Source of the DNA: Actinocorallia populi
Lineage (GTDB): Bacteria > Actinomycetota > Actinomycetes > Streptosporangiales > Streptosporangiaceae
DNA length: 64,000 nt
Direction of reading: 5' to 3'
NCBI RefSeq assembly: GCF_002995495.1
Contig: NZ_PVZV01000005.1
Coordinates: forward strand, 1-64,000
The notes beneath the pieces were generated by a model. The model was not told the DNA's origin, searched no databases, and saw only the letters and a program-made list of their open reading frames with translations. The number at the start of each line of letters is the position of its first letter. The stretch's first letter is position 1. A program made the translations under genes and the position numbers. This document shows, piece by piece, positions 45,910-54,000 of the stretch.

Positions 45910-46557
45910 TCAGGCGGCGCGGCGGACGGCGATGACGGTGTCGGTGACGACGGCGGTCCGCCCGCCGGGGCCGGTGGCTTCGCGGCGGGGCGTGTCGAGG
46001 CGTTCGGGGGTCCACCCGGCGGGGTCGAGGCCGATGCCGGCGTAGATCTCCTCGGGGGTGGGGAAACGCGTGTCGGGGTCGACGCTCGACCAGGGATGCC
46101 GCGAACCGTGCTCGACGACGAGCAGGAGGCCGCCGGGGGCGAGGGCGTGCGCGGCCCGGCGCAGGACGCGCTCGCGCGGCAGGTCGAACGGGGTCTGCAG
46201 GTACTGGGCGGAGACGAGTTCGAAGGACCCTGACGGGAAGCCGCGGGCCAGGTCGTGCAGCTCGGTGGTGACGCGGTCGGCGACACCGGCTCGGGCCGCG
46301 TGCTCCGCGGTGAGTTCCAGGGCCGCGGGCGCGATGTCGACGGCGGTGACCTGCCAGCCGCGCGCGGCCAGCCAGGCGGCGTCGCCGCCCTCTCCGCAGC
46401 CGAGGTCCAGCGCCCTGCCGGGAGCCAGCCGTTCGGCGGTCTCGGCGAGCAGCGGGTTGGGGGTGCCCTTCCACAGCCTCCCGTGGCGGCGGTAGCGGTC
46501 CTCCCAGAACAGGGCCGCCTCGTCCGCGGCACGGCCGCCGTGCATGTCGTCGCTCAT
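45910..46557 (-). CDS. Class I SAM-dependent methyltransferase
   Basis: The 215-residue methyltransferase has the SAM motif ALDLGCGEGGDAAWLA, VTAVDIAPAALELTAEHA, DLARGFPSGSFELVSAQYLQTPFD and LAPGGLLLVVEHGS. The fold resembles tellurite-resistance (TehB)-like or ubiE-like enzymes. The ATG at 46557 (MSDDMHGG) is the start. It lies 98 bases downstream of the NRPS gene in the same direction and might tailor its product, though the gap allows independent expression. Confidence 0.88.
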   Translation of the reverse strand: MSDDMHGGRAADEAALFWEDRYRRHGRLWKGTPNPLLAETAERLAPGRALDLGCGEGGDAAWLAARGWQVTAVDIAPAALELTAEHAARAGVADRVTTELHDLARGFPSGSFELVSAQYLQTPFDLPRERVLRRAAHALAPGGLLLVVEHGSRHPWSSVDPDTRFPTPEEIYAGIGLDPAGWTPERLDTPRREATGPGGRTAVVTDTVIAVRRAA

Positions 46558-46655: not shown

Positions 46656-49600
46656 CTACGACCGGAAGGCTCCGGCCGCTCCCGAGCCGGCACGGTCCGG
46701 GACGGGTGGGGCGCCGGTGAGCCTGGCCGTGATGACCCGGGCGATCTCGGCGAGGGGGGCCGGGTCCATCAGGGACCGGTGCTCGACGTCCAGGTCGTGG
46801 TTCTCGACCTTTCCGCTGATGTAGGGGCCCCAGGTGGCCTCGCCCGTCGGGGACCCGGCGGTGCGGCCGCGCAGGGCGGTGAAGAACACGATGTCGCCGT
46901 CTACGGGGCCCGGCCTGTACTTGTCCGCGATGCGGAGGCCGTTCTCGTAGTTGCGGTAGAGGGCGATGAGGCCGTGGTCGTCGAGGGCGGCGAAGGGGCT
47001 GTTCTTCTCGCGGAGCGCCGCCATGATGCGGGGGACGTCCGGCGCGTGCCTGTCCCCCGCGACCTCCTCGGAGACCCCGGCGGCGTCGAGGAGCTCGGGG
47101 ATGATCTCCAGGTCGGTGCCGAGGTCCTGGGAGTGGAAGGAGTCGATGAGCGCCAGCAGCGCGACCTCCTCCCCGGCGGCCTGGAGTAGCCGAGCCGTCT
47201 CGTAGGCGAGGAGGCCGCCGAGGGAGTAGCCCGCCAGGTGGTAGGGACCGCGTGGCTGGACGCTGCGCAGACGTGCCGCGTAATCGCGGGCGGCCTCCTC
47301 CACCGACGGGTACAGGGTGTCGTCGGAGTCCAGGAAACCGCGTGCCTGGAAGCCGTAGACGGGCTGGTCGGCGGGCAGGTGGGGGAGCAGCCCGAAGTAG
47401 GGCCACGCCAGGCCGCCCGCGGGGGGCAGGCAGAACAGCGGGGGCTTTCCGCCTTCGGCGCGGATCGGCAGGAGCACGCCGAGGCCGAGTTCCTCGTCCC
47501 GGTGCCCGCCGCGTGCGGCGACCAGCGCCGCCACGGTCTGGTGGGTGAAGATCGCGCGGGGGGACAGGTCGAGTCCGGCGGTGCGCGCCAGACCTGCCAG
47601 GCGCATCGCGCGGATCGAGTCGCCGCCCAGGGCGAAGAAGCTGACGTCGGCGGGCACCTCCGGCAGCCCGAGGACCTGGGCGAACAGCGCGGCGAGCCGC
47701 TCCTCCTCGGGGCCTTCGGGAGCGCGGCCCGCCGGTCCGTCGGCGACGGCGGGGACGGGCAGCGCCTTGTGGTCGAGCTTGCCGTTCGGGGTGAGCGGGA
47801 ACTCCGGCAGGAACACGAACTCCGACGGCACCATGGACGACGGGAGGTGCTCGGCGGCGAACCGGCGCAGCTCCTCGGTGAACTCCTGCTCCGCCTCCAG
47901 GCCGCTCGCGGGCACGATGTAGGCGACCAGGCGCCTGTCGGCGGGACGGCCGCCGGCCGGACGCCGGTCGACGTGCTCCAGCAGCCCGTCGGCGGTGCGG
48001 CGGACCAGACGTCCGGTCCGGTACATCCGCCCGCCGGGCGCCCCGAACGGGCAGGCGACGAGCCGCTCCGCGGCCGGCCCCGGCCGTCCCGCGTACTCGC
48101 GCGCCAGGCCGTCTCCCGCCACGTACAGCTCGCCGACGACCCCGGCCGGGACGGGCCGCAGCGCCGGGTCGAGCACATAGGCCCGCCGATCGGCCGCCGC
48201 GGCCCCCGGCTGATGCGGTGCGGCGGATGTGGTGGCCTCAGCCGGTTCGTGGGGGTCGCGTGATTCCAGGTCTGCGGTGACCGTCTCCACGCGGTTGAGG
48301 CGTGCTGGGGCGGCGGATGCGGTGGTCTCAGCCGGTTCGTGGGCGTTGCGCGATTTCAGGTCTGCGACGGTCGGCTCCACGCCGTTGAGGCGTGCCGGGG
48401 CGGCGGATGCGGTGGCCTTGGCAGGTTCGTGGGGGTCGCGTGATTCCAGCTTGGCGACGGAGGCCTCCACGCGGTTGAGGCGTGCCAGGGCGGTGGCGTT
48501 CCGGTCGCTGACGAGCGTCTCCCGCTCCTCGGGGTCGAGCAGGTCGATCCGGCCGACGGGGGTGTCCGGCGACCGGGCGATCAGCCGGAGCGCCCGCTCC
48601 AGACGGCGGGCCAGCCGCCGCGCCTGCCCGGCGTCGAACAGGTCGGGCCGGTAGTCCATGCGCAGCAGCAGCCGCTCGCCGGGGACGGCGGCCAGCGCGA
48701 TCGGGTAGTGGGTGGCGTCGTAGCCGCCCGCGCCCGCGACCTTGAGGCCGTCCAGGTCGGTGGCCTCGGCCGACGGGCCGTGGGGGTAGTTCTCCAGCAT
48801 GACGATCGTGTCGAACAGGGCGCCCGCGGGGGTGAGCCGCTGGATCTCGGCGATCGACAGGTGCTGGTGCGGCAGCAGTTCGGCCTGCTCGTCCTGGATC
48901 CGCCGCAGCGCCTCGCGCACCGTGTCGGCGGGCCGGGTCCGCACCCGGACGGGCAGCGTGTTGATGAACAGCCCGACCATGGCGGCGACCCCGGGCAGCT
49001 CCGGCGGCCGTCCCGACACCACCCCGCCGAAGACCACGTCGGCGCGGCCGGTCTCGCAGCCGAGGACCAGCCCCCAGGCGAGCTGGAGGACCGTGTTGAG
49101 GGTGACCTTCTCGGCGCGGGCGCGGACGGCCAGCGCGGCACTCGTCGCGGCGTCGAGCCGCGACTCGATCATCTCCGGCGGGACCGCGGGCCCCTGCGCC
49201 CGCGGCCGGACGAAGGTCGGCTCCGCGACGCCGTCGAGCGCCGCCGTCCAGGCCGCGACGGCGGCCTCCCGGTCCTGGCGGGCCAGCCAGGCGAGATAGG
49301 CCTTGTAGGGGGTGACGCGCGGCAGCGCCCCCTCGTCGCCTTCGCCGAGGTACAGCGCGAACAGCTCGGTGGTGAGGACCGGGGTGGACCAGCCGTCGAG
49401 CAGCAGGTGGTGGTTGGTGCAGATCAGCCGGTGCCGTCCGGGCCCGAGCCGGGCGAGCACGAACCGGATGAGCGGCGGCCGGGTGAGGTCCCAGCGGTGC
49501 CGCCTCTCCCGCTCGACCAGCGCGGCGAGGCCGCCGGGATCGGCCGACAGGTCCACCTCCTCCCATGGCGTCCTGACCTCTCGGTGCACGATCTGCACGG

Positions 49601-49835
49601 GTTCGCCCTGCTTGCGCTGCCGGAAGGAGACCCGAAGGTTGGCGTGGCGGCGCAGGACCGCCTCGACGGCGCCCCGCAGCCGTCCGGCGTCCAGCGGCCC
49701 GGCCAGATCGAAGACCGTCTGGGCCGCGTAGACATCGGAGTCGCCGTCGTAGAGCGCGTGGAAGTACAGGCCCTGCTGAAGGGGGGCCAGCGGCAGCACG
49801 TCCTCCAGGTTGGACGGCTTCTTCGGGGTACCCAT
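46656..49835 (-). CDS. NRPS module C-(partial A)-PCP-TE with repeat linker
   Basis: This is a 1059-residue non-ribosomal peptide synthetase. Residues 1-435 form a condensation domain with an intact catalytic motif ([10 protein letters not shown]). Residues about 449-538 are three 30-residue repeats ([16 protein letters not shown]..). After them only the rear of an adenylation domain remains (about 545-690): [20 protein letters not shown] (A6), YRTGRLVRR (A7, with Asp changed to Arg), HLPSSMVP (A9) and NGKLD (A10). Motifs A1-A5 and most of A8 are absent. A carrier domain with [12 protein letters not shown] (Ser about 737) and a thioesterase with GYSLGG (about 870) follow. It cannot activate its own amino acid and would need loading in trans, or be inactive. 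Confidence 0.92.
48221..48490 (-). repeat. Three 90 bp tandem repeats inside the NRPS gene
   Basis: Three units of exactly 90 bp lie at 48221-48310, 48311-48400 and 48401-48490, recognisable by GCCGGTTCGT (or GCAGGTTCGT) at 48241, 48331 and 48421. They differ at scattered positions, so they are not a recent assembly artefact, and they preserve the reading frame. They occupy the place of the adenylation domain front. Confidence 0.92.
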
Positions 49836-50139
49836 AGGTCGTTCCGCTCTTCGAGTTCCACGGCGAGGTCGTCGGGCCCGTCCGGGCTCATGGACGCCGG
49901 ACCCGTGCCGGGAGGGGAAGGCCGTGCGCGGCCGTGCCGGATCCGGCGCCGTCCCCCACTCCGCTCACACGTCCCGCCTTCTCCTGCGCAGCATGTCGAT
50001 CTCGAATTGTTCCAGTTTCGAGCGAAAAGAGGGGAAGCAATGGAGTCGTCCGCCGGCGACCCCGCGTCCGAGCACCGGCCCGCGCGGGACGGCGCTCCGG
50101 GGGAGCTCCCGTCTCGAAACGAAGTCGCAGAACGTTGTC
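49836..50139. other. 304 bp upstream of the NRPS gene, no gene found
   Basis: No convincing gene lies between the NRPS start and the TetR gene end. Around 50136-50160 the inverted repeat TGTCTCA-N11-TGAGACA overlaps the end of the TetR gene and may terminate it or act as a regulatory site. The NRPS start has only a weak ribosome-binding site (GCGGAACG). Confidence 0.4.
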
Positions 50140-50874
50140 TCAGAATGAGGTTTTGAGACAGCGGTAGACGGTGGCGCGGGAGACACCGAAGAGTTCGGCG
50201 ATGTGTTCGGCGGAGTGGTCGCCGGAGGCGTGCATCCGGCGGATCTCGGCGGTCTGGTCCTCGTCCAGTGCCGGCGGGCGCCCGCCGCCGTGCCCGCGCC
50301 GCCGGGGGCGCGGGCGGCCCGCGGCCGGCGGCTCGCCGAGGAGGGTGCGGGCGCCGTCGAGCAGGAGGCGGCGGAGGCGGTCGGCGGGGACGTCGTGGAA
50401 CAGCACCAGCGGGTCGGTGAGGCCGGCGACCGCCTGCGCCGCGCGCACCCGCTGCTCGAGGCCGCGGCCGGGCCCGCGGACCAGATCGTTCGCCAGCGCC
50501 ATGATGGCACGGAACCGCTCCGCCACCGGGGCCTGTACCAGCAGCGTCATGTCCCGGACGAGCATGAGCAGCGTCTTGCGGTGGGCCAGGCCGACGTCCA
50601 CGAAGCCCTCGATCGCCCGCCACCGCACCTCCTCCGGGTCGTCGTGCGCCTCGGCGGCGTTCAGCGCGCTCTCGTACGCGTCCAGCAGCGGCAGCGTGAG
50701 GCGGTGGAGGATCTCCTCCTTGGACGCGAAGTGGTAGTAGAGGGCCGCCTTGGTGATGCCCACCCGCTCGGCGATCGACTGCATGGACGTCGCGCGGTAG
50801 CCGTGCTCGCCGAACAGCGTGCCGGCGGCGGCCAGGATCCGCTCGGCCGTGGTCCCGGGGTCCCGGACGGTCAT
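50140..50874 (-). CDS. TetR regulator with extra C-terminal resolvase-type HTH
   Basis: The 244-residue protein has an N-terminal TetR HTH ([45 protein letters not shown], about 12-56), a normal TetR ligand-binding domain to about residue 185, a basic linker ([15 protein letters not shown]) and then a second [42 protein letters not shown], which matches the Hin/resolvase HTH_7 type. The ATG at 50874 has AAGGAGGGG upstream. It diverges from an alpha/beta hydrolase gene 75 bases away. Confidence 0.9.
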
Positions 50875-50888
50875 CCGCCCCTCCTTGC

Positions 50889-50923
50889 TTACCATCGGTC
50901 AGTAACTTTGCTATTTTACCGAC
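50889..50923. promoter_or_regulatory. Divergent promoter with opposed ACCGA half-sites
   Basis: Within the 75 bp divergent gap, CCATCGGTCAGTAA and TTTTACCGACC form an imperfect inverted repeat (CGGT...ACCG) around an AT-rich centre with TTTGCTATTTT. This is the expected binding region for the adjacent TetR regulator. Confidence 0.4.
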
Positions 50924-51924: not shown

Positions 51925-52458
51925 TCAGCCGGATTCCCGCTGCGGCTCTCCCGTGGGGAACAGGATCAGGCTCGTCAGGTGGGGGGCGCGGCCGGGGGCG
52001 GGCCCGTTGGCGCTCCGGGCGGCGAAGACCGCGCGGAGGTCGTCGATGAGACCGGTGAGCTCGTCCCGGTCGAGCCAGAGCACACCCTGCCGGTAGCCGA
52101 CGCGGTCGGCGAACGGATCGGCTCCGTCCCGGTCGAGGTAGGCGCCGAACTCGGCGAGCAGGGCGGCCACGGCCGAGGCGAAGCCCTGGCGGTGCTCGTC
52201 CGCGGTCATGGCCGCGCCGTCGATCTCCGTACGCTCGGCGCGCAGCCGGTAGTGGCGCTCGACGGCGCCGCGCACGCGCTGCTCGTCGGCGACCTCCAGC
52301 ACCCCTCCCTCGGCCAGCAGCCCGACATGCCGGTAGACGGTGGTCTTGGGGACGTCGGGGAGGCGGGCGCACAGCTCGGACGTGGTGCGGGTGCCGCCGG
52401 ACACGGCGTGCACGATGCGCAGCCGGATGGGGTGCAGGAGCAGGTCGAGCGGGTCCAT
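51925..52458 (-). CDS. ArsR-like winged-helix regulator
   Basis: The 177-residue protein has its wHTH at the N-terminus (LLLHPIRLRIVHAVSGGTRTTSELCARLPDVPKTTVYRHVGLLAEGGVLEV, about 5-56), followed by a helical C-terminal domain with LWLDRDELTGLIDDLRAVFA. This form (HTH_20 plus effector domain) is common in actinobacteria. The ATG at 52458 is the start. It diverges from an erythromycin-esterase-like gene with paired operator-like repeats between. Confidence 0.88.
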   Translation of the reverse strand: MDPLDLLLHPIRLRIVHAVSGGTRTTSELCARLPDVPKTTVYRHVGLLAEGGVLEVADEQRVRGAVERHYRLRAERTEIDGAAMTADEHRQGFASAVAALLAEFGAYLDRDGADPFADRVGYRQGVLWLDRDELTGLIDDLRAVFAARSANGPAPGRAPHLTSLILFPTGEPQRESG

Positions 52459-52467
52459 GCCCCAATG

Positions 52468-52500
52468 TTCCCATATCTGGTACCGTTCCCAAACTTGGAA
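52468..52500. promoter_or_regulatory. Two direct TTCCCA-N4-TGG operator repeats
   Basis: TTCCCATATCTGG (52468) and TTCCCAAACTTGG (52486) are direct repeats 18 bp apart, and each contains a small CCA-N4-TGG dyad. They lie between the ArsR-like gene (10 bases) and the esterase-like gene (17 bases), so they should control both. Confidence 0.6.
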
Positions 52501-52516
52501 AAGGGAGGGGGCGGCC

Positions 52517-53842
52517 ATGGACGGCACGAGGGCGGCGGCACGGCTGGGCGGCGCGGCGGTCATACCGCTGCGCACGTTGGACCCGGACGGCCCGCTGGAC
52601 GACCTGAGCCGGCTGGACGAGGCGATCGGCGACGCCCGGGTGGTGGCGATCGGCGAGAGCGCGCACTACAACCGCGAGTTCTTCCGGCTGCGCCACCGCC
52701 TGCTGCGCTACCTGGTCGAACGGCACGGGTTCGGCGCCTACGCGATGGAGACCGGGTTCGTCGAGGGGCGGCTGGTCGACGGCTGGGTCCGGGGCGGCGG
52801 AGACGCGCTCGGCGACGTCATGGCCAACGGCATGACGTCACTGATGGGTATGTGGACGCAGATGCGCGCTCACCTGGAGTGGATGCGGCGGTACAACGGC
52901 GCGGCCGAGCGCCCGGTCGGCTTCTACGGGATCGACCTGCCCGGCTCGAACGCGTCCCTGCTGCCCGGCCTGGACGCCGTGATCGCCTACCTCGCGGAGG
53001 CGGAGCCGGAGTTCCGGATCGACCCGGGCATCCGGGAGACGGCCGCGCGCTTCGCCGCGACGTCGGCCTTCTCCGCGCCCGAGGCCTTCTCCGCCTACAT
53101 GGGCCTCGCCCCCGCGGCCAAGGACGCCCTCACCGCGAGCCTCGCCGACCTCGCCGGACGCATGGCGGCCGGTCGCGTGGACCACGTCCAGCGGACAGGC
53201 GTCGAGGCCTACGAACGCGCATCGCGTTCGCTGGCCATCACGGCGGCCCTCGACACGGTCGTCCGCGCGATGGTCCGCGGCGACCAGTGGGCCGCGATGT
53301 CCGGCCGCGACGCCGCGATCGCGGACACCGTCGAGATGATCCTGCGCAAAGAGGGCAGGGTCGTCCTCGCCGCCCACAACGGCCACGTCCAGCGCCGGCC
53401 CGTCGCCCTTCCCGGCATCCCTCCGGTGCCGATGGCGGGCCTGCACCTCGCCGACCGGCTGGGCGACGGCTACCTCGCCATCGGCACGACCTCGGGAACC
53501 GGCCAGATGCTCAACGTGGGCCCCGACTTCGCCACCGGAACGCTGTTCACGGAGATGGAGGCACCGCGACCCGGCAGCCTGGACGCCCTCATGGACGCCA
53601 GCCACGACGGGCCCTTTGCCACCGACCTGCGAAACCTGTCCCCGGCCGACGCCGAAGCGGTCCGGGCCGCCACGCCGCACCGCGCCGGCAACGGGGCGTC
53701 CTACTGCGACCTGAACCCGCTGGAAGCCTTCGACCTCCTTATCCACCTCCCGCACGTCACGGCGGCCGACGTCGACACCACCGCACTCGCCCACGCCCCC
53801 CAAGACGTCCAGAAGGCCTTCTCCGGCTGGAAGCCGAAATGA
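52517..53842 (+). CDS. Erythromycin esterase-family protein
   Basis: The 441-residue protein of the EreA/ChaN-like clan shows the active-site strand VVAIGESAHYNREFFRLRHRLLRYLVERHGFGAYAMETGF with the catalytic His and two Glu, FYGIDLPGS, and LAAHNGHVQRRP near residue 290. True Ere enzymes hydrolyse the macrolide lactone, but many family members have other substrates, so resistance cannot be claimed. The ATG at 52517 follows AAGGGAGGGG. It is divergent from the ArsR-like regulator. Confidence 0.88.
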   Translation: MDGTRAAARLGGAAVIPLRTLDPDGPLDDLSRLDEAIGDARVVAIGESAHYNREFFRLRHRLLRYLVERHGFGAYAMETGFVEGRLVDGWVRGGGDALGDVMANGMTSLMGMWTQMRAHLEWMRRYNGAAERPVGFYGIDLPGSNASLLPGLDAVIAYLAEAEPEFRIDPGIRETAARFAATSAFSAPEAFSAYMGLAPAAKDALTASLADLAGRMAAGRVDHVQRTGVEAYERASRSLAITAALDTVVRAMVRGDQWAAMSGRDAAIADTVEMILRKEGRVVLAAHNGHVQRRPVALPGIPPVPMAGLHLADRLGDGYLAIGTTSGTGQMLNVGPDFATGTLFTEMEAPRPGSLDALMDASHDGPFATDLRNLSPADAEAVRAATPHRAGNGASYCDLNPLEAFDLLIHLPHVTAADVDTTALAHAPQDVQKAFSGWKPK

Positions 53843-53860
53843 CGCCGGGAACCCGCTGAC

Positions 53861-54000
53861 GGGGCGATGATCGCGGGAAAGGCGCCGGAGCGGGACCCAG
53901 GCGGGGGAGTGGTGCGGGGCGGTGATCGCGTGGAAGTGCCGCAGCAGGGCTCCGGCGGGGGAGAGGCGCGGGGTGGGAACGCGTGGCGGGGGGCGAGGGC
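53861..54000 (+). repeat. Degenerate 55 bp tandem repeats in intergenic DNA
   Basis: GGGGCGATGATCGCG at 53861 recurs as GGGGCGGTGATCGCG at 53916, with similar following sequence, and a more decayed copy starts near 53970 (GGGGTGGGAACGCG). The period is about 55 bp. No gene is seen in 53843-54137 on either strand. Confidence 0.55.

Follow-up and report, generated by a model that had tools for sequence, protein, structure and literature searches.

The non-ribosomal peptide synthetases (NRPSs) EntF and SrfA-C (structures 5ja1 and 2vsq) share the domain order condensation (C), adenylation (A), peptidyl carrier protein (PCP) and thioesterase (TE), with an A core. Here we analyse a gene related to them in which most of the A domain is lost. 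It lies on the minus strand at 46656..49835 of a 64,000-nucleotide stretch of Actinocorallia populi, which we call the window and which corresponds to positions 1-64000 of contig NZ_PVZV01000005.1 (C5:1-64000; the genome has 8.25 Mb in 25 contigs). The window protein matches 2vsq over the C domain and 5ja1 from motifs A9-A10 to the TE.

Two known systems without a complete A domain in cis are comparable to this gene. The A-less module CmnI of capreomycin is reported to be loaded in trans by CmnA-A1 (PMC12400406), and CmnI and VioI (capreomycin and viomycin) are, like the window module, without a working A domain of their own (PMC12400406). Corallorazine Crz1/Crz2 is reported to be the first split A domain with experimental evidence (PMC11342130), and it is the only experimental precedent of this kind found in the open literature. 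The window protein resembles the first system in having intact C and PCP motifs and no complete cis A domain, and the second in keeping A9-A10 in cis without A8 (PMC11342130). However, unlike CmnI/VioI as described there, it retains A-domain debris and a TE, is an orphan and has only candidate loaders (PMC12400406), and unlike Crz1/Crz2 it still contains A6-A7 debris and repeats, and its partner is only a candidate (PMC11342130). We suggest, with a probability of roughly 58%, that this genome carries a second copy of an NRPS operon, now eroded, with the window gene as its final gene; C, PCP and TE would be kept, and the PCP, if the protein is active, would be loaded in trans.

Domain organization of the window gene

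The open reading frame (ORF) starts with ATG and encodes 1059 amino acids with the layout C-[A relic]-PCP-TE, that is, an orphan terminal NRPS module. All 1059 codons are open, with neither stops nor frame breaks seen. The C domain (residues 11-441; 48513..49805, minus strand, as for all features below) matches PF00668 with an E-value of 3.9e-82 and carries HHLLLDGWS. The PCP (PP-binding residues 712-773; 47517..47702; PF00550, E 3e-14) keeps the Ser of LGGDS, and the TE (residues 798-1036; 46728..47444; PF00975, E 2.6e-27) keeps GYSLGG. Asp and His residues of the TE, which we take to be the catalytic ones, are also retained in the alignment with relatives.

Between C and PCP, A6-A7 debris, A9-A10 and nothing else intact are left of the A motifs. 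The A6-A7 relic with the stretch that precedes it (residues 541-628; 47952..48215) corresponds to the tail of PF00501 and reads YRTGRL for YRTGDL; the AMP-binding match covers only positions 340-383 of 384 and scores 24.6 bits, below the cut-off of 29.9 bits. The A9-A10 piece (residues 629-700; 47736..47951), assigned by PF13193 and by alignment, keeps LPSSMVP and NGKLD, with AMP-binding_C residues 630-686 falling on positions 20-76 of PF13193. Thus, of the parts of a terminal C-A-PCP-TE module, the C domain with HHxxxDG, the carrier Ser and the TE residues are present, and the A1-A10 series is not.

The identity of 62% to a full-length homologue across C, PCP and TE excludes a wrong-frame or chance reading. 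The GC content by codon position is coding-like across the whole ORF and weaker over the repeats described below, where third-position GC is 0.73-0.80 versus 0.83-1.00 in nearly all other blocks. An AlphaFold model from a 22-row alignment has high confidence for C and most of the TE, moderate confidence for the PCP, pLDDT of 37-77 in the A relic and disordered repeats with pLDDT of 23-29. The initial annotation, made from the letters alone, had described an open 1059-codon C/PCP/TE gene with HHLLLDGWS, the PCP Ser, GYSLGG, YRTGRL in A7 and three in-frame 90-bp repeats; ORF, Pfam and Tandem Repeats Finder (TRF) analyses bear this out.

Loss of the A domain and origin of the repeats

The window protein aligns with its relatives as far as the C domain extends; after that A1-A4 are gone, the three repeats come next, then the A6-A7 debris, and A8 is gone. 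Similarity resumes after the A8 gap at RLVAYIVPA and continues with A9-A10. The A8 region was taken out by a second, separate in-frame deletion, which reduced ~37 residues of the relatives to ~5. The window protein is incapable of amino-acid selection and its A domain is dead.

The repeat array (48216-48493; period 90, 3.1 copies, 83% matches) is the top TRF row of the window with a score of 388, the runner-up among 15 rows scoring 149. Its three direct, in-frame copies occupy residues 451-480 (copy 1; 48396..48485), 481-510 (copy 2; 48306..48395) and 511-540 (copy 3; 48216..48305), and any two of them differ at 14-16 of 90 bases. Copy 3, probably a decayed A5 segment, is collinear with motif A5 of the relatives and aligns opposite their YGPTEATTYV. 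Together with its tail it scores 36.1 at the DNA level against the A5 region of 60 relatives, versus 26.9 ± 2.2 for codon shuffles, of which 0/200 are as good; for copy 2, 4/200 are as good.

The protein-level signal is weak. With hidden Markov models (HMMs), 46/3000 shuffles are as good as copy 3 with its tail; taken singly, copy 3 is equalled by 61/3000 shuffles for the whole A core and 55/3000 for an A5 profile, copy 2 by 278/3000 and 115/3000, and copy 1, which is not significant, by 1018/3000 and 1928/3000. In pairwise scoring the mean of copy 3 is beaten by 1/300 shuffles and its maximum reached by 49/300, and copies 1 and 2 score no better, or little better, than chance. Because copy 3 occupies the A5 place and its DNA resembles the A5 region, we read the repeats, with moderate confidence, as a decayed and triplicated A5 segment of the A domain itself. 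This modifies the initial annotation, in which A1-A5 and most of A8 were absent and replaced by repeats: A1-A4 are indeed gone and the loss of A8 is confirmed, A5 is better called decayed and triplicated, at the same moderate confidence, and the notion of replacement is probably wrong as to origin.

A foreign insert or mobile repeat was considered as the source of the array and rejected, as no second copy of the 90-bp unit is found in the genome (best other match 35.6 bits). Among the 341 family genomes the unit has only short matches, none above 46.4 bits, in 43 genomes other than this one. Five of these 43, all from the Actinomadura group (g82: G261, G262, G278, G282 and G306), contain a 76-77% match to one 74-base part of the array (48275-48348, query bases 153-226).

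Relatives and constraint on C, PCP and TE

Of the 341 family genomes searched, 84 (this one included) have a similar TE at E <= 1e-50. Besides the window there are 88 such places, 63 of which were fetched. The nearest relatives are terminal C-A-PCP-TE modules. The comparison of homologues proposed in the initial annotation finds the A core at least partly kept in 63/63 fetched relatives and a complete one-frame module in 60, with none lacking an A core. The 61-row alignment omits L181, L195 and L210 (two frame-broken, one fetched incompletely). L181 and L210 have all domains in broken frames, from sequencing error or decay, and in the incompletely fetched L195 part of the A core is still visible.

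A quick tree of C, PCP and TE places the window protein, on a long end branch of 0.51, as the sister of three terminal modules from Actinocorallia (SH-aLRT 100), one of which is encoded in the same genome on contig C3 (C3:509650-513465). A recent duplication of this C3 gene was rejected as the origin of the window gene: the C domains are 62-65% and the TEs 55-56% identical, and the three Actinocorallia copies form a group that excludes the window branch. A closer plasmid copy is not found either (0/1168 matching records at >=60% identity). The terminal modules of Actinocorallia, Actinomadura and related NRPSs are like the window gene in the start of the C domain, domain order and C/PCP/TE sequence (62% to the nearest); unlike it, they have an intact A core, whereas in the window gene the A core is lost, and probably the NRPS gene upstream of it as well.

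C, PCP and TE together are evolving no faster than in the intact sisters, and only the A relic is relaxed; two measures support this. On a fixed tree, the rate on the window branch divided by the mean of the three sisters is 1.15 for C, 0.86 for PCP, 0.64 for TE and 0.88 for the three jointly, and 2.44 for the A relic (2.71 for the A6-A7 stretch and 2.05 for the A9-A10 piece). Conserved sites were defined as positions that >=95% of the 57 outside relatives share, with clade mates removed. At these the window protein has changed 30/259 in C, PCP and TE, versus 24, 26 and 29 in the three intact sisters; in C alone the numbers are 21/178 versus 19, 17 and 20, level with the sisters, and in the A relic 9/55 versus 3, 2 and 2. 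The suggestion of the initial annotation that selection may have kept C-PCP-TE thus gains support, with 30/259 against 24, 26 and 29 and rates of 0.88 against 2.44.

The repeats also provide a clock. Each copy has changed at ~8% of sites, which gives 0.081 substitutions per site since the triplication. Neutrality over this time predicts 63.9 changes in C, PCP and TE, and 30 are seen (P(<=30) = 1e-7); the A relic is compatible with neutrality, 10.9 changes being expected and 9 seen. The same clock predicts 4.3-5.3 stops, yet the gene has none (P 0.005-0.014 with three mutation models, and less with indels); nor are frame-breaking indels seen in the ORF.

A probably eroded operon

In the relatives an NRPS ending in a tail like GGFTPSDLSLVDVSQDEIDELAAELD is encoded beside the terminal module. 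The corresponding NRPS of C3 ends in a condensation-family domain whose motif marks it as epimerase-type. This widespread operon of the relatives may be siderophore-type.

Directly upstream of the window gene, 49839..49958 is probably what remains of an NRPS gene that was lost there, namely DNA of its 3'-end (docking tail), judged by DNA similarity to the relatives' upstream stretches, which could be obtained for 44 of 63 relatives. Its mean score is 52.6, whereas stretches drawn at random from the window average 28.9 ± 4.6 and 0/150 of them are as good; 34/41 bases are identical to L170 in the printed alignment. A scan for the lost docking tail with a protein HMM finds nothing at the expected place, the best match elsewhere reaching 4.5 bits; the relic is therefore out of frame or decayed. 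The operon of the window gene thus looks eroded, its upstream NRPS gene probably lost except for this 3'-end DNA.

A split A domain in the same genome

The search for stand-alone A domains, MbtH and other NRPS genes proposed in the initial annotation is productive: across the genome there are 78 AMP-binding matches, one of them the relic, two MbtH genes, the C3 and C4 synthetases and a stand-alone A1-A8 protein. Each of the two synthetases contains one module of the type C-[A9-A10]-PCP without an A core (L168 module 2 and L251 module 2), and each protein stretch scanned has three AMP-binding_C, three carrier and two AMP-binding matches. The stand-alone protein of 490 residues is encoded upstream of the C3 gene (C3:531034-532503 = L168:9031-10503), and its C-terminus falls just before the start point of the cis A9-A10 pieces. 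It is the only match in this genome at E <= 1e-110. An SbnA-type gene for 2,3-diaminopropionate synthesis, above its cut-off, is its neighbour (L168:10844-11812), and diaminopropionate is therefore a candidate substrate. The C4 NRPS (L251:4299-13709) has the split module and a docking-like tail, with no PF00975 thioesterase match on contig C4; its end domain is likewise epimerase-type, judging by the motif.

Homologues of the stand-alone protein occur in 68/341 family genomes at E <= 1e-110, this one included, not all being confirmed as A1-A8 only. We compared 22 loci, namely C3, C4 and 20 from other genomes, whose stand-alone proteins are >55% identical. All of the 21 stand-alone proteins read across them (21/21) end after A8. 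An A9-A10-only module is found in 19/22 loci, and S, A or T replaces the A9 tyrosine in 19/19. The split A domain, an A1-A8 protein plus A9-A10 within an NRPS module, thus looks conserved across Actinomadura and relatives, as judged from these sequences. Three loci, L290, L292 and L296, have stand-alone A1-A8 genes and no NRPS or split module in the fetched stretch. L069, the fifth split module type of a first, smaller set, has P at the A9 tyrosine position.

Proposed mechanism and alternative explanations

We suggest that the ancestral gene would have been a normal terminal C-A-PCP-TE module. A1-A4 would have been deleted, the A5 segment tandemly triplicated and decayed, and A8 deleted, each surviving change preserving the frame; ever since the death of the A domain, C, PCP and TE would have remained under constraint similar to that in the intact sisters. 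If the protein is active, another synthetase of the genome, acting upstream, would pass its chain to the C domain, an A enzyme encoded elsewhere would load the PCP in trans, and the TE would release the product. Loading in trans is required in that case, because the window protein cannot select an amino acid. The anatomy, the kinship and the contrast in rates are observed directly, and statistical tests support the A5 origin of the repeats, the operon relic and the lasting constraint. Present activity, trans loading and the partner are what we infer for this protein; the C3 or the C4 synthetase may be the chain donor, and the loader may be either the stand-alone A1-A8 enzyme or the A domain from the sister module on C3. 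The A-core-less C3 and C4 modules provide a precedent within the genome. The initial annotation had put forward three readings, namely trans loading, condensation with release but no amino-acid selection, and decay; the first of them is plausible, given 78 AMP-binding matches, two MbtH genes and two A-core-less modules.

Several observations weigh against this proposal. Within the 64-kb window there are no other AMP-binding or Condensation matches, so that the partner gene is not found there; by eye, no clear Shine-Dalgarno sequence precedes the gene; and its flanks match scattered places in two congeners, so the locus may be dispensable. When the panel includes the clade mates, the proportion of conserved-site changes in the window C domain (0.096) exceeds that of all 60 relatives (maximum 0.092); on the same panel both A pieces are above all 60, and 7/60 relatives are as high for PCP and 4/60 for TE. 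The conclusion on constraint depends on the divergence of the repeats being a fair neutral clock: at half its rate P is 0.005, and at a quarter P is 0.16 and the neutral model is not rejected. The dN/dS comparison proposed in the initial annotation could be made, and its pairwise values are uninformative (0.39-0.66 for pairs with the window gene, 0.22-0.66 for functional pairs). As to the origin of the repeats, the DNA likeness of copy 1 to the A5 region is at chance (42/200 codon shuffles as good), and copy 3, placed freely in the whole genes of five relatives, lands on A5 in two of them (L167, L169) and at other places in the remaining three (L172, L208, L223).

The gene might alternatively be a recent pseudogene, a possible yet doubtful reading, in which the operon was recently lost, the A domain broken and the ORF left open by the short time elapsed and the rarity of stops at 72% GC. 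The eroded operon, the absence of NRPS neighbours, the non-syntenic flanks and the accelerated A relic all agree with it, and long ORFs are abundant in every frame of the window (174 of at least 150 residues). Yet each repeat copy has changed at ~8% with no stop or frame break in the gene, and C, PCP and TE have no surplus of conserved-site changes. Since they are constrained while the A relic is accelerated, a simple pseudogene is disfavoured, provided that the clock is fair; the decay considered in the initial annotation is partly right, in that the A domain is dead and the operon looks eroded. Still less credit goes to an assembly artefact, which we regard as barely conceivable: the assembly is a draft of 25 contigs and the gene lies ~47 kb from a contig start, but the gap holds diverged in-frame repeats rather than a clean junction, and 14-16/90 differences among the copies are unexpected from a simple collapse or duplication error.

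The protein could also be an acceptor of the split system, with A9-A10 in cis and A1-A8 supplied by the stand-alone enzyme that would serve the C3/C4 modules (C3:531034-532503). The deletion of A8 stops where split modules have the start of their cis piece, and serine stands in place of the A9 tyrosine (LPSSMVP), which is likewise missing from 19/19 split modules; S, A or C is found there in just 7/216 other non-split pieces (first set, window excluded). Even with A9 masked, five split pieces rank 2, 4, 5, 13 and 53 of 221 by similarity to the window piece (Mann-Whitney p 4e-4), and the same five rank 38-96 and 28-80 of 222 for two sister terminal modules. The evidence is divided, however, and we give this reading a low probability: on a split-versus-intact profile with A9 masked the window piece scores -25.8, which 23/216 intact pieces equal or exceed, whereas the lowest of 22 split pieces scores +5.8. 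Furthermore, the A6-A7 debris (within 47952-48215) and the repeats are absent from the split modules inspected, the A9-A10 piece evolves faster than in the sisters (2.05), and no A1-A8 gene is near, the only AMP-binding match in the window being the relic. An extension, in which one free A1-A8 enzyme would serve the C3 and C4 modules and the window protein, the latter being in transition to a split A domain and finishing the product of the C4 synthetase, whose contig lacks a thioesterase match, is a similarly long shot. Very unlikely is a role in release only, in which the TE, with the PCP, would hydrolyse stalled chains and C would be merely a docking unit: the TE is indeed the part most constrained relative to the sisters (0.64), but C and PCP are about as well preserved as their counterparts in the sisters, and three further strong thioesterase matches, in short frames of 258-462 residues, occur in the genome. 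Retention of C-PCP-TE without the module's own A domain remains the reading that we prefer.

Neighbouring genes

The upstream neighbour of the window gene (50140..50895, minus strand) encodes a TetR-type regulator with an extra C-terminal resolvase-type helix-turn-helix (PF00440, PF02796), and the downstream neighbour (45910..46545, minus strand) an S-adenosylmethionine (SAM)-dependent methyltransferase (PF13649 and others). Farther along the window are an erythromycin-esterase-like gene (52340-53842), which scores far under the EreB cut-off, and a 54-bp tandem repeat (53860-53986, 2.3 copies).

Implications

If our proposal is true, the window gene would document, in nature, one way in which A-less modules loaded in trans can arise, namely by stepwise loss of the selector under continued constraint on the other domains. 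The split A domain may matter more than the window gene itself: engineers could cut at the point where nature divides it, and with this system it becomes testable whether one free A core loads several modules.

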